Assembly: GCA_023135215.1 (NCBI GenBank)
Contig: JAGLTP010000392.1
Span: 1 to 6,441 of the forward strand
Origin: Candidatus Heimdallarchaeota archaeon
GTDB taxonomy: Archaea; Asgardarchaeota; Heimdallarchaeia; Heimdallarchaeales; Heimdallarchaeaceae
DNA length: 6,441 nt
Direction: 5' to 3'
Shown here in pieces: positions 1 through 6,441 of the stretch. Numbering within the stretch: the first letter of the stretch is position 1; each line of letters opens with the position of its first letter. The notes below the pieces were generated by a model. It worked only from the letters and a program-made list of their open reading frames with translations, was not told where the DNA came from and made no database searches. The position numbers were made by a program, and so were the translations under genes.

Positions 1-393
1 TAATCTCAGTCTTTCATACCTTAAACTGGGATCCACATGAATTGCTACTATAACAAATTCGTCATTAAGATGATTCTTAAAATAATCAACTTCAGCTTGA
101 CTTCTGATTCCGTCAATAATTATTCTATGATTTTCCTCTTCTATTAGACTATCAATTGCTTTACAAGTAAGATGTGCAACTGCCTCTTCTCCCATTTTTT
201 CTCTGACTTGCACCATTACTCTTTGTGTGTTATCTGGAGTGGGTTCAAATCCTTCCTCAACAACTTTCGCTCGAATTACATCTCCCATAATGACAGTTTT
301 ATAGCCTCTTTGGGTCGCAAACTGTGCAAATAAGCTTTTCCCAGAACCAGGCATACCTGTCACCCCAATCACTCTAGTAATTCGATTTGTCAT
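1..393 (-). CDS. UPF0200-family P-loop nucleotide kinase-like protein (3' end outside window)
   Basis: Reading the minus strand from an ATG at 393 gives 131 uninterrupted codons to the window edge, so the C-terminus is missing. UPF0200 proteins are usually about 180-190 aa, so roughly two thirds is visible. Residues 13-20 form a Walker A loop (GMPGSGKS) straight after the first beta strand. A later hydrophobic strand ends in DGIRSQAEVDYF (94-105), the conserved DGIRS segment of archaeal UPF0200 proteins, which have an adenylate-kinase/dephospho-CoA-kinase-like fold. It is presumably a cytoplasmic nucleotide or small-molecule kinase; the substrate is not established for the family and cannot be told here. 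The gene diverges from thpR across a 103-nt spacer. No strong TATA box lies at the leaderless distance. The A/T element at 463-479 could serve both directions, leaving a leader of about 50 nt. The family call is confident; the function is open. Confidence 0.85.
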   Translation of the reverse strand, partial: MTNRITRVIGVTGMPGSGKSLFAQFATQRGYKTVIMGDVIRAKVVEEGFEPTPDNTQRVMVQVREKMGEEAVAHLTCKAIDSLIEEENHRIIIDGIRSQAEVDYFKNHLNDEFVIVAIHVDPSLRYERLRL

Positions 394-462
394 CAAGCTC
401 AAAGAGGAAATAAAGATTGTAGTTAAAAGTTTTGTTAATTGATTAATTTTCTGAACTGAATA

Positions 463-479
463 AATATTTATAAAATATT
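463..479 (+). promoter_or_regulatory. TATA box of thpR (leaderless spacing)
   Basis: An A/T element with core TTTATAAA at 467-474 is centred about 26 nt before the thpR ATG at 497. Archaeal TBP sites lie about 25-27 nt upstream of the transcription start, so the mRNA probably begins at or within a base or two of the start codon. No Shine-Dalgarno-like purine run precedes the ATG, which agrees with a leaderless transcript. The element is nearly palindromic and might also fire toward the UPF0200 gene. Confidence 0.6.
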
Positions 480-496
480 AAAAAATCCAATAAATT

Positions 497-1057
497 ATGG
501 TTCGTGCATTCATCTCCGTAGATTTCACAGATAAGCTCATTCAGGAAAGAATAAAAGATTTACAAGATGAAATCAGTTCTTCTGGAGCACATTTGAGACT
601 AGTTAATCCTAGTATTTTGCACATTACTTTAGAATTTCTTGGAGACATTACTGAAGATCAAATTGCAATAGTAAAAGAAATTCTTGAGGAGCTAGAATTT
701 GATTTAATTAAACTGAATGTTAAAAATCCAAATGTTCTACCTAATGAGAATCATGTCAGGGTAGTCTACTGTGAATTAGACGGGGATATTGAACCTCTCA
801 AGGAAATTCAGAAAACTCTTAGAGAAAAACTTCAGACAAACGGTTTTAGAGTTGATAATCGCTCCTTTAAGCCACATTTAACAATAGCAAGAGTGAAATC
901 TGCTAAGAATAGAAAAGAATTAATTAGAGTTATTAAACAACAATCTGAAGTATCTTGTGGAATTCAAGAAATCAACACAATAAATTTAAAACAATCCATA
1001 TTAAAACCGGAAGGACCTCAATATACAAAATTACATGAAGCTCACGCAAAAAAATAG
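497..1057 (+). CDS. thpR: ThpR: RNA 2',3'-cyclic phosphodiesterase / 2'-5' RNA ligase family (2H phosphoesterase)
   Basis: This 186-aa protein has the usual length of archaeal/bacterial ThpR (LigT). Two HxT motifs define the 2H superfamily: H42-I-T44 within LHITLEFLG and H127-L-T129 within FKPHLTIAR. Each comes from one of the two pseudo-symmetric lobes and supplies a catalytic His and Thr. The N-terminus MVRAFISVDF is the typical first strand. Known members open 2',3'-cyclic phosphates on RNA to 2'-phosphates and can join or cleave 2'-5' linked RNA in vitro; the cellular substrate in archaea is not settled. The protein is cytoplasmic, with no signal or membrane segment. The cca homologue follows after 18 nt on the same strand, so the two are probably co-transcribed from the TATA box near 470. 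A thpR-cca pairing is one I recall from other archaea. Both active-site motifs are intact. Confidence 0.95.
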   Translation: MVRAFISVDFTDKLIQERIKDLQDEISSSGAHLRLVNPSILHITLEFLGDITEDQIAIVKEILEELEFDLIKLNVKNPNVLPNENHVRVVYCELDGDIEPLKEIQKTLREKLQTNGFRVDNRSFKPHLTIARVKSAKNRKELIRVIKQQSEVSCGIQEINTINLKQSILKPEGPQYTKLHEAHAKK

Positions 1058-1063
1058 AATAAG

Positions 1064-1072
1064 AAAAGTGAT
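1064..1072 (+). promoter_or_regulatory. Possible Shine-Dalgarno of the cca homologue
   Basis: The thpR-cca spacer holds AAAAGTGAT, which ends 3 nt before the ATG at 1076. Its GTGAT part matches the 3' half of the archaeal consensus GGAGGTGAT. It is a weak site close to the start codon, consistent with translation of the second cistron of an operon. No TATA-like element sits between the two genes. Confidence 0.35.
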
Positions 1073-1075
1073 AAA

Positions 1076-2587
1076 ATGAGTAAATCCAATACTCCAAACG
1101 TAGCTAAAAAGAAAGAGACTCTTAATCATGATGAAGTTGAAAAGAAAGTACTAGAAGTAATTCAAGTTCAATGGGAACAACATGAAAAACAAAGAGAACT
1201 CTTGTCAATATTAAGTGAAAAAATCCAGATGGATTTGAATTCTCTTGGCTATATCGGAAGAGTAGAAACTCAAGGATCATTCATTCGAAAGACCTATCTA
1301 AGTGAAGATGAGACTTTTGATTTACTTCTAATTCTATCGAGATCAGAGAAAGCAAAAGTCCATCAAATATTAGATGCTTTGGTTCAAAGGTTGAAAAAAG
1401 ATAGAGTTAAGAAACAGCTAATTACTGTTGAAAAACATACTGGTAAAATGCCATATTTACGTATGATAGTTGATGAAGAACTCATTAACTTATTTGTCGG
1501 TTTTGAAGTATCACCTGGAGAAGAAACAATTTCCATTTTCGATTTAATTCCAATGCATACTCAATATATTCTGACTCATATGAAAGAAGAAAAAAGACAA
1601 GAAGTGCTCTTATTCAAGAAATTCGTAAAAGCAATAGGTGTCTATAGGAGTGAAATAGGAGCTATCGGATTCAACGGATACCTTTGTGAGTTACTAATAA
1701 TATTCTACGGTACTTTTAGAAAAGCTATAGAAGCAATAAGAAACTGGAAACCAAGAACCATTATTGATCTTAAGAAGAATCAAGAAAAAACTGAAGATGT
1801 TGATTTTCTTACAAGCGAACTTCTAGTGGGGTATTATCCATTATACGTGTTAGATCCACTGAATCCAAAAGACAATGTTGCTGCTAGTGTTTCAGTAGAC
1901 CAGTATAATTCAATTGTTGCAGCTGCAAATATTTACTTCTACAATCCTTTAATCAGCTTTTTCGAGGATCAATTATGCGAAGCTCCTCCTTTTGATGATT
2001 TAGTACGAAAGATAGTTAATTCAGGAAGAGAAATAGTTGTTTTAACAATAGACAGAGATTTTAAAGAGTCTGAAGTATGCTGGCAAAAAGCTCTAAACAT
2101 AAGATCATCATTCGAAACTGAATTAAGGAATAACAATTATCTACTTGAGAGGATTAAGCCTTTTGTCTCCGATGAACACTTTGGAGTCTTTGTAAGTTTA
2201 ATGGCTGCTAATCCCCAAATATCACTGCGTAGGGAAGGACCTGAAGTTACATCAAGAGAATCACTGAAATTCCTGAGACGATACTCAAAACATGTAGATG
2301 TAGTAGCTGGACCTTTCATTGACGATGACAAGTGGGTTATTCATTTTACTAAAAAAGGTCAAATAATAAATGATTTCCTTCAAAATCTTGTAAAGAAAAA
2401 TACATTTGTTCTAAATGTAGATTCTTTTCTTAAAATAGAAATTAAAGAAAAAATGTCTGTTTTAGGCTTAGATGACAATCTTAGAGAAATGTATGAAATT
2501 GATGAAACCTTCTCTGAAAGCTTCTTCTTATTTATAGAGAGAAAACCCTTGTGGATTTGCAGTTTAAAGGATGCTGATTTATTTTAA
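1076..2587 (+). CDS. cca: Archaeal class I CCA-adding enzyme (tRNA nucleotidyltransferase) homologue with degenerate active site
   Basis: The 503-aa protein has the archaeal CCA-adding enzyme architecture: nucleotidyltransferase head (about 25-165), central helical domain with the hallmark GFNGYLCELLIIFYGTF (198-214), body with DPLNPKDNVAASVS (260-273), and tail with REGPEV (386-391). It is some 50-60 aa longer than usual, through a basic N-terminal extension and extra C-terminal sequence. I aligned it by eye to Archaeoglobus fulgidus CCA, recalled from memory. The triphosphate-binding H133, K152 and Y161 correspond to H161, K181 and Y190. Metal ligand D61 corresponds to D82. However, E59 is T80, D110 is N138, the DRTP arginine is L157, and base-contacting R224 is D266. 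Active family members add CCA to tRNA 3' ends using CTP and ATP; two of three catalytic carboxylates are missing here, so activity is doubtful. It is the second gene of the thpR operon. The fold is certain; function as a normal CCA enzyme is not. Confidence 0.9.
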   Translation: MSKSNTPNVAKKKETLNHDEVEKKVLEVIQVQWEQHEKQRELLSILSEKIQMDLNSLGYIGRVETQGSFIRKTYLSEDETFDLLLILSRSEKAKVHQILDALVQRLKKDRVKKQLITVEKHTGKMPYLRMIVDEELINLFVGFEVSPGEETISIFDLIPMHTQYILTHMKEEKRQEVLLFKKFVKAIGVYRSEIGAIGFNGYLCELLIIFYGTFRKAIEAIRNWKPRTIIDLKKNQEKTEDVDFLTSELLVGYYPLYVLDPLNPKDNVAASVSVDQYNSIVAAANIYFYNPLISFFEDQLCEAPPFDDLVRKIVNSGREIVVLTIDRDFKESEVCWQKALNIRSSFETELRNNNYLLERIKPFVSDEHFGVFVSLMAANPQISLRREGPEVTSRESLKFLRRYSKHVDVVAGPFIDDDKWVIHFTKKGQIINDFLQNLVKKNTFVLNVDSFLKIEIKEKMSVLGLDDNLREMYEIDETFSESFFLFIERKPLWICSLKDADLF

Positions 2588-2607
2588 AAAAACAAAAAAA
2601 GAAAAAA
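2586..2607 (-). terminator. Oligo-T terminator of the surface-protein gene
   Basis: Read on the minus strand, three T runs (6, 7 and 7 T, separated by single C and G) begin 10 nt after the stop codon at 2617-2619. Archaeal RNA polymerase terminates at such oligo-T tracts without needing a hairpin. The tract touches the last bases of the convergent cca homologue's stop codon. For that plus-strand gene I see only a weak T-rich stretch (2617-2626), inside the 3' end of the surface-protein gene. Confidence 0.6.
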
Positions 2608-2616
2608 GGAATGAAA

Positions 2617-4131
2617 TTATTTCTTTCTACGTAGATATACTAATGCAATAATTGGTGTTATTGAAGCTGTGATTATCAACAAATCTGTAGCACTGAAACC
2701 TATAGTGAAAGTATTGCCATTATCTCCATCATCTGTAGGTTCTTCACCTTCATTCAGTAACTTAACAGGATGAATGACGAAATATGGTTTGCCATCTATA
2801 TCTTTTAAGTCAAAGTAGTTAGGTCCATCTTCAGAATTTTGAGCTAAAATTACAGTTATGTAGATATAGTCTCCTGCGCTGAATACCCCATCCCTTCCAG
2901 CTGAATCACCGGAATTAAGAGGTTTGGAAAACTCAACTTGTCTGTGAGTACCTGTATAGGTTACATTAGCTTGACCATCATTCATACCCCCAACTTCTTC
3001 ATCAGCTGTTGGTTCACCTAGACCTCCAGGAATGAACCCGTCAAGATAGCCATAGCTACCCAACATAACAAAATCAGTTCCATCTGTATAGTTTAGCATA
3101 TCAACTCCTTTACCAATCAAAATTCCTACCCAATCACCCGGTGTTTCAAGTTCATCGTATAAATCAAAGTAGAAGTACATGTTGATTCCATTATGGCATA
3201 CTAACATTGTGACATTCCAAACTAGACTCGAATCTATCATCCCAGTGCTCCAATTAAGATAGGATAATGTCAACTGATATTCCATTGCATCATCCCAAGC
3301 TGATTCATCAGCCACTCCATCAATGATAATTGTTTTTGTAGTATAAGGAGCTTGAAATTCAGACCCTTCAACAGATCCTGGATACATCGGTCCATCATAT
3401 AATTCTAATGGATCTCCAAGATTATCTCCAATATCCACTCGTATATAGCGGAATTCTTCTGGGATCATTGTTCCAAAGTTTGGTCCATTGTCTTCAGGAA
3501 AGATATTTATCCATGCTGCAATTTCAACTGCAATTGCTTGTCCATAATCTAAGAATATATCTTTTCCAGCAGTGTCACCTGATCTCAGGAGTTTGGATCC
3601 TTCAAAAAACGAACCGTTTAAACTTGTATATATCAAGGAACAATGAGCATCATTTGTACCTCCATAATACTCATCATTCATAGGTGCTGATTCTTCACCA
3701 CCATCTGGAAAAGCTAAGTCCATGTAAGTATTATAATAAGCATACATATGTACTCCATCATTTTGTCCTGGTTTACCAAAGAAGTGTATATCTGCTGCTT
3801 TCACATGACCTAAATCGATTGGTATGTATAGATACCAGAAAAGATGAGTATTGTTGTAAGCGAAATTAATGACAGTTGTTAATGTGGTATAAGCACTCTG
3901 AAAAGTGGTAGTTGTTCCAACAACATATTCATAGATGTCAAAATATCCTTCGTTAGCTGTATTCCAATCACCATAATCTCCATCAATTATGATACTTGGA
4001 TTATATTCAGCAACTAGGGATAGCGTGGGTGCAATTGTATCTTGAGCTACAATGTCAATTACACCAGTGCTCAGGATACTTATTCCAAAAATTGTAATAA
4101 CTACTATTGTTAGTGTTCTATAAACCTTCAT
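2617..4131 (-). CDS. Secreted, membrane-anchored surface protein with two tandem CBM9/DOMON-like domains
   Basis: I start this at the ATG at 4131 (504 aa). The reading frame runs open to another ATG at 4206, but the inner start opens directly on a signal peptide (K2, R5, hydrophobic 6-28, plausible cleavage after A29) and has a GGGGG Shine-Dalgarno-like run 6 nt upstream. Two related units follow, about 45-235 and 265-455. Each begins with an IIIDG strand (47-51; 268-272), continues with DEYYGGTND or DEEVGGMND (153-161; 377-385) and LRSGDTAGKD or LNSGDSAGRD, and ends in EDNGPNF or EDGPNYF. The IDG...W opening and the VEFSKPLNSGD strand resemble CBM9/DOMON-like beta-sandwich domains, which bind sugars or haem; no ligand can be assigned. 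An acidic linker (461-472) precedes a membrane helix (about 476-499) and an RRKK tail, so the bulk faces outside. Six N-x-S/T sequons suggest N-glycosylation. Topology is confident, domain family moderate. Confidence 0.8.
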   Translation of the reverse strand: MKVYRTLTIVVITIFGISILSTGVIDIVAQDTIAPTLSLVAEYNPSIIIDGDYGDWNTANEGYFDIYEYVVGTTTTFQSAYTTLTTVINFAYNNTHLFWYLYIPIDLGHVKAADIHFFGKPGQNDGVHMYAYYNTYMDLAFPDGGEESAPMNDEYYGGTNDAHCSLIYTSLNGSFFEGSKLLRSGDTAGKDIFLDYGQAIAVEIAAWINIFPEDNGPNFGTMIPEEFRYIRVDIGDNLGDPLELYDGPMYPGSVEGSEFQAPYTTKTIIIDGVADESAWDDAMEYQLTLSYLNWSTGMIDSSLVWNVTMLVCHNGINMYFYFDLYDELETPGDWVGILIGKGVDMLNYTDGTDFVMLGSYGYLDGFIPGGLGEPTADEEVGGMNDGQANVTYTGTHRQVEFSKPLNSGDSAGRDGVFSAGDYIYITVILAQNSEDGPNYFDLKDIDGKPYFVIHPVKLLNEGEEPTDDGDNGNTFTIGFSATDLLIITASITPIIALVYLRRKK

Positions 4132-4149
4132 TTTGAACCCCCGTTCAAA
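4132..4149. promoter_or_regulatory. Perfect 7-bp inverted repeat abutting the surface-protein start codon
   Basis: TTTGAAC (4132-4138), a CCCC spacer and GTTCAAA (4143-4149) form a perfect inverted repeat that ends on the base next to the ATG at 4131-4129. On the minus-strand mRNA it could fold as a 7-bp hairpin with a GGGG loop, holding the only Shine-Dalgarno-like run, GGGGG. As DNA it is a possible operator at or just after the transcription start. It may therefore act in translation, in transcription, or be chance; the sequence alone does not decide. Confidence 0.45.
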
Positions 4150-4172
4150 TGTTCTTATTATATTTGTCCTTT

Positions 4173-4186
4173 TTTTATATATATAC
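4173..4186 (-). promoter_or_regulatory. TATA box of the surface-protein gene
   Basis: On the minus strand a TATATATATAAA element is centred near 4178, which would place transcription start near 4153 and leave a leader of about 20 nt containing the GGGGG run. A second, weaker element (AATATAATAA, about 4155-4164) lies 29 nt from the ATG and could instead give a nearly leaderless transcript. The first option fits the Shine-Dalgarno-like run better. Confidence 0.45.
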
Positions 4187-4277
4187 GATATGTTTGAGGA
4201 AAACATAATTATGGGAGTTCGAGAAAAGTGGAGTTGTCTCCTAAAGAATTTTTGTCATTATTTTATGTTTATTTCAG

Positions 4278-4286
4278 TTTTTATAA
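4278..4286 (+). promoter_or_regulatory. TATA box of the Mre11-like gene
   Basis: TTTTTATAA, centred near 4282, predicts a start near 4308 and a leader of about 20 nt. That leader would include GGGGT at 4317-4320 and its flank, a plausible Shine-Dalgarno 10 nt before the GTG at 4331. The short stretch 4187-4277 between this and the divergent promoter holds nothing else I can name. Confidence 0.4.
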
Positions 4287-4330
4287 TGAAATCTATGACT
4301 GAAAGATAACATCATGGGGTAGAGATTATA

Positions 4331-5329
4331 GTGAAAATCTTAGCTACAGCAGATAGCCATTTTGGCTATGAATTTGGAAGAACATCACAAGCTAAGAATC
4401 AATCTATTCAAAAGATGTTTGATGTTTATCAAGAAGTAATGCAACAAGCAAAATCAGAAAGAGTAGACTTAGTCCTCCATGGGGGAGATATGTTTAATCG
4501 ATCTCAACCAAAAAAGAAAATAATCTCTGAAGCTTATAACCTGATCAGAAATATAGCTGAAGAAGGAATCCCATTTATTGGAATTCCAGGAAATCATGAC
4601 AGATCAAAACTTCCTGAAACATTATTAAATTTCATCGATAAAGATATTCATTTACTTAGTAAATTCTCTGCGATTGAAGTAGAAGATTTAGTAATACTTG
4701 GATTTCCATTTATTGGTAAGAATCCAAGAGTAATTCTGTCAAAAGCAAATAGTTTAGCTGAAAGTTATCCGCAAAAATCTTTTCTCATTCTATGTCACCA
4801 ACTCTTTGATGGAGCTATGTTTGGCCCCCACCAGCATGTTTTCAAAAATAGATCTGATACACTGGTTACTACGGATTTACCGGAAAATGTTAGATTGATT
4901 TTATCAGGTCACATTCATAGGGCTCAGTCTTTGCAAAATAGAAGGGTATACTATACAGGATCTTTAGAAAGAACTAGTTTTATGGAAATTATTGAACCAA
5001 AGGGTTATTTATTATTTAATTTAGAAGATGATTATTTTGATGTAAGATTCAAAGAAATAGAAACTCTACCCATGGAAGTCAAAGAGCTGGATATAACCGA
5101 TGTGAACCAAATCTCAAAGCTAATTGATCAACATTATCCAGATAATAGCATCAGAACTCAACTACGATTTTTTGGAAGAAAACTAACAGAAGATGAAATT
5201 AAATTCCTTTGGGCTTATTTACCTGCAAAAGAATTCCCATTACTTTCTTTCTCTCCAAAGAATCCTTCATATATTCTGAGGAGTTTATACAGCAACAGAA
5301 TAATGAATTTCCATTTTGAAGCGAGTTAA
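4331..5329 (+). CDS. Mre11/SbcD-like metallophosphoesterase (DNA exonuclease family), stand-alone
   Basis: The 332-aa protein starts with GTG. The start is supported because it puts D8 and H10 of the first motif at the same positions as in Pyrococcus Mre11, and a Shine-Dalgarno-like GGGGT lies upstream; an earlier ATG at 4314 meets a stop after one codon. All five calcineurin-like metal motifs are present: D8-x-H10, GGD53, GN88HD, H156 in LCHQ, and GH194-x-H196. These should hold two metal ions (typically Mn) for nuclease activity. GSLERTSF (210-217) is also typical of SbcD/Mre11. A small C-terminal cap (about 245-332) follows. The protein then ends, with no clear Rad50-binding helix-loop-helix segment; archaeal Mre11 proteins are usually about 370-420 aa. 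No rad50, herA or nurA flanks it. It is probably a DNA-end nuclease or a related phosphodiesterase working without a neighbouring Rad50. The family call is confident; orthology to Mre11 is not. Confidence 0.85.
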   Translation: MKILATADSHFGYEFGRTSQAKNQSIQKMFDVYQEVMQQAKSERVDLVLHGGDMFNRSQPKKKIISEAYNLIRNIAEEGIPFIGIPGNHDRSKLPETLLNFIDKDIHLLSKFSAIEVEDLVILGFPFIGKNPRVILSKANSLAESYPQKSFLILCHQLFDGAMFGPHQHVFKNRSDTLVTTDLPENVRLILSGHIHRAQSLQNRRVYYTGSLERTSFMEIIEPKGYLLFNLEDDYFDVRFKEIETLPMEVKELDITDVNQISKLIDQHYPDNSIRTQLRFFGRKLTEDEIKFLWAYLPAKEFPLLSFSPKNPSYILRSLYSNRIMNFHFEAS

Positions 5330-5335
5330 TATCAT

Positions 5336-6094
5336 TCAAAACTCCTTAATCAGGTAACGATAACGATATTTCTCCTTGAACCCTACTTTTTTGTATAAAT
5401 TTATTGCTGATGCACTTTCTGATTCTACTTGTAAGAAAACTCTGTCTACCAAATTAACATCTCCCCATTCTATCATCTTAGCTAATATAGTCTGTGCAAT
5501 TCCTTTGCGTCTATAATCTGGATGAGTAAACATACTGTAAATTACCATGTAATTCTCTTGGAGAACAGCAAGACCAACAGCTACTGTTTTTTCGTTATCT
5601 CCAGCTATGAAATAGCCTACATTAGATTGAGCAATTCTACCAATAATCTCTCTCCTTCCATCAATCTGTGGTTTATCTGCTTGATTGATTATTTGCAGTT
5701 CAGTCAACCATTTATCTAATTCACCCTCCAAGAGGAGAAACTCAAATTTTTCGTTTAGATAAGAAAGGTTTATTTCATCGATATTAGCCATCATAACAAT
5801 TGTTTCATCTTTTATTTCATAATCGAGTGAAAGAAGTTTATTTTGTAGAGAAGCTGGTTCAAAAGTGTCGTGTAATTGAAATATCGAAGGAAGATTATTT
5901 GCTCGATAATAATTCTCAACTGCTAGTATGTCTTCGTTTAGATTTCCACCGGAATATTCCACTGGAGAAACGCTGTTTACTCGTTTAGTTATCCCCTCAG
6001 AAATGCGAATCTTCCAACCATTTAGGTTTAAACTTATTTTAGGAGGCCAAGTAAAATTTGAAATCTCCTGCAAAGTTTTTATCTCTTCACTCAT
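5336..6094 (-). CDS. GNAT-family N-acetyltransferase, two-lobed (degenerate N-terminal half plus active C-terminal half)
   Basis: This 252-aa cytoplasmic protein ends in a canonical GNAT domain (about 118-252). The signs are the strand VAVGLAVLQ, then MFTHPDYRRKGIAQTIL with the acetyl-CoA pyrophosphate loop R195-R196-K197-G198-I199-A200, then VFLQVESESASAINLYKKVGF (220-239, with the conserved N232 and Y234). The N-terminal half has a recognisable pattern (WPP at 16-18, LNGWKIRIS, TKRVNSVSP at 36-44, LPSIFQLHD, SLDYEI) seen in double-GNAT acetyltransferases, where that lobe lacks a CoA loop and likely shapes the substrate site. The acceptor substrate cannot be inferred. It converges on the Mre11-like gene with 6 nt between stop codons, so the two transcripts probably overlap at their 3' ends. 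A TATA-like element 27 nt before the ATG suggests a leaderless mRNA. The family call is firm. Confidence 0.88.
   Translation of the reverse strand: MSEEIKTLQEISNFTWPPKISLNLNGWKIRISEGITKRVNSVSPVEYSGGNLNEDILAVENYYRANNLPSIFQLHDTFEPASLQNKLLSLDYEIKDETIVMMANIDEINLSYLNEKFEFLLLEGELDKWLTELQIINQADKPQIDGRREIIGRIAQSNVGYFIAGDNEKTVAVGLAVLQENYMVIYSMFTHPDYRRKGIAQTILAKMIEWGDVNLVDRVFLQVESESASAINLYKKVGFKEKYRYRYLIKEF
5387..5392 (+). terminator. Possible oligo-T terminator for the Mre11-like gene
   Basis: The first T6 run downstream of the Mre11-like stop codon lies about 58 nt on, inside the 3' end of the convergent acetyltransferase gene. If used, the nuclease transcript would carry a short antisense overlap with its neighbour. 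This is weak evidence, since short T runs are common in such A/T-rich DNA. Confidence 0.25.
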
Positions 6095-6116
6095 CTTATG
6101 TCTGATTGCTAAAATG

Positions 6117-6127
6117 ATTATAAAAAT
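6117..6127 (-). promoter_or_regulatory. TATA box of the acetyltransferase gene (leaderless spacing)
   Basis: On the minus strand ATTTTTATAAT is centred near 6121, 27 nt before the ATG at 6094. This matches a transcript starting at the start codon. No Shine-Dalgarno-like run precedes the ATG. Confidence 0.5.
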
Positions 6128-6147
6128 TATATTGTTTTGAGATTAAT

Positions 6148-6156
6148 TTTATATAA
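6148..6156 (+). promoter_or_regulatory. TATA box of the lipid-kinase gene (leaderless spacing)
   Basis: TTTATATAA is centred near 6152, 26 nt before the ATG at 6178. It lies about 30 nt from the divergent acetyltransferase TATA box, so the two promoters share an 83-nt spacer and each looks leaderless. Confidence 0.55.
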
Positions 6157-6177
6157 TTCCTAAACATCTAAAGCTTA

Positions 6178-6441
6178 ATGGATTCCGAACCTTTCTTGAT
6201 CATCAATCCTAATGCAGGTTCAGGTAAAGCTGGTAAGAGAATAAACAAACTTCTACCTTCGATCAAGGAGCATTTTGGAGAAATTGCTTATGAAATAACA
6301 AAGAAACCAAGGGATGAGGTTTCTATTACAAAAAAAGCAATAGAGGAAGGTTACAAAACTATTTTGTCAATGGGAGGAGATGGAACAGCTTCAAACATTG
6401 GTGATGTGTTAATAGATTATCCAGATGTAAAACTAGGAATG
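6178..6441 (+). CDS. Diacylglycerol kinase-family lipid kinase (YegS/LCB5-type), N-terminal part
   Basis: Reading from the ATG at 6178 gives 88 open codons to the window edge, about 30% of the usual 290-320 aa. The N-terminus FLIINPNAGSGKAGKR (6-21) is the first strand and NPxAG loop of the DAGK catalytic domain, and GGDGT (66-70) after a hydrophobic strand is its nucleotide-binding signature. Family members phosphorylate lipid hydroxyls (diacylglycerol, sphingoid bases and similar) with ATP at the inner face of the membrane; ATP-NAD kinases share the fold and the GGDGT motif. The early NPNAG loop and short N-terminus favour the lipid kinase branch. In an archaeon the likely substrate would be an ether lipid or an isoprenoid precursor, which is inference. 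The ATG is supported by the TATA box 26 nt upstream. It is divergent from the acetyltransferase gene. Confidence 0.85.
   Translation, partial: MDSEPFLIINPNAGSGKAGKRINKLLPSIKEHFGEIAYEITKKPRDEVSITKKAIEEGYKTILSMGGDGTASNIGDVLIDYPDVKLGM

Follow-up and report, generated by a model that had tools for sequence, protein, structure and literature searches.

A class I CCA-adding enzyme homologue encoded by Candidatus Heimdallarchaeota archaeon has a dismantled catalytic site, and the same state was found throughout the Heimdallarchaeaceae-type clade to which it belongs. The gene lies in a stretch of 6,441 nucleotides (contig JAGLTP010000392.1 of assembly GCA_023135215.1, positions 1 to 6,441 of the forward strand), the whole of which is referred to below as the window. 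That is, no clade sequence covering the sites has an acid at the positions of Glu59 or Asp110 of the Archaeoglobus fulgidus enzyme, or an arginine at those of Arg129 or Arg224, while the gene itself is under strong purifying selection. We consider it probable, though well short of certain, that the native archaeal class I enzyme has been displaced and kept as a non-catalytic protein that would bind tRNA or other RNA ends.

The window protein carries the class I family domains PF09249 and PF21133 together with the class I fold, and thus belongs to this evolutionary family. Its TIGR03671 score (242.6 bits) nevertheless lies under the equivalog cut-off of 281.3, below which the dismantled protein of genome G013 also falls (225.5), whereas the intact Asgard proteins of G032 and locus L030 score 297.7 and 387.0. 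A protein search yielded 74 proteins including the window's own (P0001); 36 homologues (P0002-P0037), several with the source names Heimdallarchaeaceae or Heimdallarchaeota, are 52-89% identical to it, and the next are canonical class I enzymes at 31% or less. Residue pairs were counted along a HMMER sequence alignment to the PDB sequence of the A. fulgidus enzyme (1r89), in which the GSxxRxT...D stretch is free of gaps; fold comparisons gave matching ranges, not residue pairs. The residue census compared 59 clade rows, some of them one protein from two sources, with 101 other class I rows, genome loci included. The gene and its diagnostic positions are as follows:

1076..2587, plus strand: class I CCA-adding enzyme homologue with a dismantled catalytic site (503 codons, 503 amino acids, no internal stop)
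1277..1279, plus strand: Ser68, equivalent to Ser47 of the GS motif, kept (S in 56 of 56 covering clade rows)
1313..1315, plus strand: Thr80 (ACT), replacing catalytic Glu59 (clade: T 28, S 13, V 12, I 2, A 1; three rows not covering)
1319..1321, plus strand: Asp82, equivalent to Asp61 and the sole remaining catalytic carboxylate (D in 56 of 56 covering clade rows)
1439..1447, plus strand: Thr122-Gly123-Lys124, of the clade motif TGKxP; canonical enzymes have YAEHP
1487..1489, plus strand: Asn138 (AAC), replacing catalytic Asp110 (clade: N 50, H 8, of 58)
1544..1546, plus strand: Leu157, replacing the DRTP arginine Arg129 (R in 0 of 58 clade rows)
1556..1558, plus strand: His161, equivalent to His133, kept (H in 58 of 58)
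1616..1618, plus strand: Lys181, equivalent to Lys152, kept (K in 58 of 58)
1643..1648, plus strand: Tyr190, equivalent to Tyr161, kept (Y in 58 of 58), followed by the clade-specific Arg191 (Gly162 in A. fulgidus)
1871..1873, plus strand: Asp266 (GAC), replacing base-selecting Arg224 (clade: D 47, E 7, N 3, M 1, S 1, of 59)

A review names Glu59, Asp61 and Asp110 as the catalytic carboxylates of the A. fulgidus enzyme and Arg224 as the residue that reads the bases of CTP and ATP (PMC3925840). The window protein therefore has one of the three metal-binding carboxylates (Thr80, Asp82 and Asn138 at the sites of E/D59, D61 and D/E110) and an acid in place of the base reader, for which no arginine was found in any of the 59 clade rows. 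Compared with the A. fulgidus enzyme (1r89; TIGR03671), the replaced residues are Glu59, Asp110, Arg129, Arg224, the histidine of YAEHP and Gly162. Arg71 (Arg50 in A. fulgidus) is kept in the window protein, as are His161, Lys181 and Tyr190, the counterparts of His133, Lys152 and Tyr161, which we take to be triphosphate binders. The codons and the intact frame of 503 codons given in the sequence-only reading are correct. Its equivalences to E59, D61, D110, the DRTP arginine, H133, K152, Y161 and R224 were all borne out by the alignment, and the roles it gave to the carboxylates and to Arg224 agree with the review just cited. In an AlphaFold2 model (predicted local distance difference test score, pLDDT, 87.7), Thr80 and Asp82 lie in a strand at 80-87 and Asn138 in one at 135-143.

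The other class I rows show the opposite pattern. Position 80 is D or E in 99 of 100 (one N, in P0065), position 138 is D or E in 97 of 100, and arginine is universal at positions 157 (100/100) and 266 (101/101). The three proteins with Asn at the third carboxylate (P0040, P0196 and P0197) are intact at the other catalytic positions looked at. The closest sister lineages in the tree, G030, G031, G032 and G011 (loci L095-L097 and L078), are among the intact rows, and no orthologue with restored catalytic residues was found among the 59 clade rows. Since the whole clade has the pattern and other class I rows do not, neither chance nor sequencing error accounts for it. Across the clade, the residues standing in for Glu59, Asp110 and Arg224 vary somewhat, and none of them restores the catalytic state. 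Ten positions conserved in at least 90% of other class I rows are lost or relaxed in the clade (P31, F84, H125, Y127, V155, R157, L180, G191, D263 and R266), nine of them within residues 84-266; only three such family positions, G388, P389 and F399, lie in the body and tail domains, and all three are kept in the clade, so the comparison says little about those domains. Clade and other class I proteins share 22 invariants, including G67, S68, T73, D82, D156, H161, K181 and Y190. In addition, the clade has acquired near-invariant residues of its own, among them K120, G123, K124, R129 and N200 (window numbering, at least 97%) and R191, which is present in 96% of 57 clade rows where all 90 other rows aligned have glycine.

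A quick class I tree of 64 rows separates the 21 dismantled ones, the window's included, from the rest by a branch whose Shimodaira-Hasegawa-like approximate likelihood ratio (SH-aLRT) support is 100. G011 and G030-G032 join the clade at a fork with support 92. At 1.89 changes per column, the stem branch of the clade is exceeded in length only by the midpoint-root branch (1.46 + 0.49); the end branches of its crown range from 0.004 to 0.5. A single long stem followed by short crown branches suggests one loss and then renewed constraint. The ratio of nonsynonymous to synonymous substitution (dN/dS, Nei-Gojobori) has a median of 0.079 over clade pairs with a proportion of synonymous differences (pS) below 0.65 (26 of 231 pairs); it is 0.052 between the window and L001 and 0.064 between the window and L005, and spans 0.074-0.335 in ten intact class I pairs. 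The dismantled gene is therefore under strong purifying selection while its catalytic residues are gone across orthologues, the combination expected of a pseudoenzyme. A median near 0.08 upholds the earlier view that this is not random decay, and the clade-wide losses, the selection and the kept pocket residues together favour a retained pseudoenzyme, as judged from sequence. Another class I lineage of the phylum (L075-L077, L098-L111, L113 and L114) has a one-residue insertion and a GS(T/S)GxKxTxL-type motif, and 14 rows of it form a deep branch of their own in the class I tree.

The genomic setting bears on whether the gene is an orthologue or a paralogue. Its neighbours in the window are:

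497..1057, plus strand: thpR, an RNA 2',3'-cyclic phosphodiesterase homologue (TIGR02258, 133.5 bits against a cut-off of 65.7; two HxT motifs)
1..402, minus strand: P-loop kinase-like gene (kin), a divergent neighbour cut by the window edge

Only 18 bases separate thpR from the 503-codon open reading frame on the same strand. At each of the 21 clade loci thpR adjoins the dismantled gene and shares its strand, and the order kin-thpR-cca recurs in the intact sister G032. A search with the window's ThpR (E up to 1e-6) placed thpR next to class I at 28 of the 53 other loci, some of which have only about 1 kb of flank, and it is divergent in G030 and G031. A single class I gene was found in each of the 21 clade genomes, and the five genomes reached via related loci have one PF09249 match each. 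A sole class I gene at the thpR-cca locus indicates an orthologue at its old place, and the changed paralogue offered as an alternative by the sequence-only reading is thereby set aside.

The second component of the picture is a class II enzyme. Among the 227 Asgard genomes surveyed by profile matches, PF09249 (class I) occurs in 187 and PF01743 (class II) in 40; a hand count gives 21 genomes with both, 166 with class I alone, 19 with class II alone and 21 with neither. The class I gene was read from 21 clade genomes, in all of which it is dismantled, and 19 of these (not G003 and G028) also have class II, as do four of the five genomes reached via related loci; G024 has a clade-type class II enzyme and no class I match. 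Conversely, class I read from 53 other genomes is intact wherever covered (L036 is too short for its head to be judged), and only one of these genomes (G152) has class II. G190 matches both profiles, its class I lying outside the sequences read. A second, intact cca gene, as envisaged from the sequence alone, is thus present in 19 of 21 clade genomes, but it is of the bacterial class II type and not a second class I copy; the window protein itself has no match to the PF01743 head domain. Class II enzymes, known from bacteria and eukaryotes, catalyse the same reaction as the ancestral enzyme and have a different architecture (PMC3925840). The G013 genome is a single contig of 3,326,783 bases that carries both genes, the dismantled one at 58.3 kb and class II at 3250.7 kb, and mis-binning therefore does not account for their joint presence.

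The class II proteins of 20 clade-type genomes all retain the GGFVRD..DxD, RRDFT(I/V)N and EDxxR motifs. For those of G013 and G005, the best NCBIfam models are CCA tRNA nucleotidyltransferases, all below their cut-offs, with A-adding enzyme and PcnB models ranking behind. A quick tree built from 42 class II rows places the 12 clade rows together on one side of a branch with support 100 and unites them, at 99, with 13 rows of bacterial type, of which eight carry the names of Bacteroidota genera or orders; the bacterial rows were picked from matches to a clade query, so this tree does not settle the donor. Fifteen rows from genomes without class I stand apart (87). Moreover, in every one of the 136 pairs from 17 genomes the dismantled class I protein shows higher conservation than class II (mean identity 0.716 versus 0.533). 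Separately, 18 genomes of the phylum without a class I match (G033-G040, G042 and G044-G052; loci L045-L054, L056-L061, L063, L157-L160, L163 and L164) each have one or two class II enzymes, in several genomes of about 650 and about 390 amino acids, and may have a split pair of CC- and A-adding enzymes and a separate class II acquisition.

The tRNA genes sampled were the best-scoring loci, up to 30 per search. The CCA end is encoded in 31 of 32 distinct genes of G013, 17 of 17 of G025 and 15 of 15 of G005, all clade genomes, and in all 10 sampled from each of the intact sisters G030, G031 and G032; the figures are 10 of 12 for G009 and 4 of 22 for G051, which has class II only. With CCA encoded in nearly all sampled clade genes, CCA addition probably serves for repair in the clade, and the encoded CCA probably predates the loss of the catalytic residues. 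Two putative intron-bearing tRNAs were predicted by ARAGORN in G013, one with a CTA anticodon (Pyl-like; L126, 1826-1933) and one with a TCA anticodon (Sec-like; L130, 1501-1607).

The following scheme could connect these results. The class I enzyme at the thpR-cca locus would have lost its nucleotidyl-transfer residues once, in the clade ancestor, leaving a protein presumably devoid of CCA-adding activity, and CCA repair would be done by the class II enzyme. The body and tail may still bind the acceptor/T-arm half of tRNA, or a tRNA-like RNA, without catalysis, and the former triphosphate pocket may hold an RNA 3' end or a nucleotide phosphate. Both the fold and the residues we take to line the phosphate pocket are kept in the clade, and this combination of lost metal ligands and base reader with a kept pocket is consistent with holding RNA ends or nucleotide phosphates rather than polymerising. 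We favour a role as a chaperone of tRNA or other RNA, or as a surveillance platform, that might pass RNA ends to the co-encoded ThpR.

Other explanations have to be weighed against this displacement. The degenerate protein could be a non-catalytic partner or regulator of class II, or of ThpR, in a hetero-oligomer that recruits or orients tRNA. We regard this as a minor possibility that still deserves attention: the class I and class II genes are not adjacent (in G013 they are more than 130 kb apart even if the contig is circular), class II evolves faster than its supposed partner, and the co-occurrence of class I loss with class II amounts to a single phylogenetic event. It is rather unlikely that the protein is a changed enzyme or nucleoside triphosphate (NTP) sensor, in which a remodelled cleft (TGKxP, Asp82, His161, Lys181, Tyr190 and Arg191) binds NTP for sensing or new chemistry. 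The invariance of the three pocket residues and the clade-specific residues K120, G123, K124, R129, N200 and R191, in or beside the old cleft motifs, would suit such a role; the base-reading position, on the other hand, varies among D, E, N, M and S, so that no new base specificity has been fixed, and we know of no nucleotidyltransferase that works with one of three carboxylates.

That the protein still adds CCA with an unusual metal site is very improbable. Fold and pocket are kept, and acids at positions 77 and 78 stand just ahead of Thr80 in most rows, but the clade has lost two carboxylates, the DRTP arginine and Arg224 all together where other class I proteins keep them, it has a class II enzyme, and the TIGR03671 cut-off separates the two dismantled proteins scored from the two intact Asgard ones. 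As for decay, sequencing error or misbinned contamination, the data are mostly metagenome assemblies; even so, the 36 close homologues share the state wherever the sites are covered, the locus is conserved in 21 genomes and dN/dS is about 0.08, leaving this account a negligible probability.

The nearest precedent is Utp22/NOL6, a protein of the eukaryotic small-subunit processome. According to PMC3794860, it has a class I CCA fold with degenerate carboxylates, one Asp kept and apparently no enzymatic activity, and Utp22 itself consists of two modules in tandem, is bound to Rrp7 and has blocked tRNA channels. Utp22 is also the first non-CCA Foldseek match of the window protein's model (E 2.6e-13, rank 15; intact control, E 1.7e-10, rank 21). 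A Utp22/NOL6-like scaffold function in ribosome assembly is nonetheless improbable for the archaeal protein, which differs in being a single module of 503 amino acids, in keeping its pocket residues and in being accompanied by class II. No Utp22 match appeared in a profile search at E up to 1, and when 22 members were compared with Pfam at E up to 10, within HMMER's filters, 21 families gave matches and Nrap was not among them. ILF2/ILF3 (NF45/NF90), a nucleotidyltransferase-fold heterodimer, matched model residues 14-297 only.

Heimdallarchaeaceae are living archaea close to eukaryotes. It is conceivable, though quite unlikely, that they show a replacement which eukaryotes may also have undergone, class II taking over CCA work and the freed class I protein becoming a conserved RNA-binding scaffold, as a model for, or even a relative of, the birth of Utp22/NOL6. 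If so, the degenerate protein would be more constrained than the live enzyme because it is now a core RNA-handling factor. The clade would in any case offer a single-module test case for the step from tRNA enzyme to RNA scaffold proposed for eukaryotic Utp22 (PMC3794860). CCA-adding enzymes are usually regarded as housekeeping genes, and COG1746, the archaeal CCA-adding enzyme, has served as a genome completeness marker (PMC9258230). Here the marker gene is present but unlikely to do its job, so that homology-based annotation would mislead for a whole archaeal family. The clade also offers a naturally occurring example of a housekeeping enzyme that was joined by a counterpart of bacterial type and afterwards stayed strongly constrained without its catalytic residues, with intact sister lineages, CCA-encoding tRNA genes on both sides of the change and a presumed replacement as points of comparison. 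Our searches of the open-licence literature turned up nothing that describes a CCA pseudoenzyme in archaea or the replacement of class I by class II in Asgard archaea.

Two further genes lie downstream in the window. The first (2617-4206, minus strand) encodes a 529-amino-acid protein without a Pfam or NCBIfam match, which by eye has an N-terminal part resembling a signal sequence and, towards the C-terminus, a hydrophobic segment that ends in RRKK; a homologue is present in 12 of 21 clade loci, some of which are short. The second (4331-5329, plus strand) encodes a Mre11/SbcD-like phosphoesterase of 332 amino acids; no Rad50-like match was found among the other window proteins scanned, and a homologue of the phosphoesterase occurs in 13 of the 21 clade loci.
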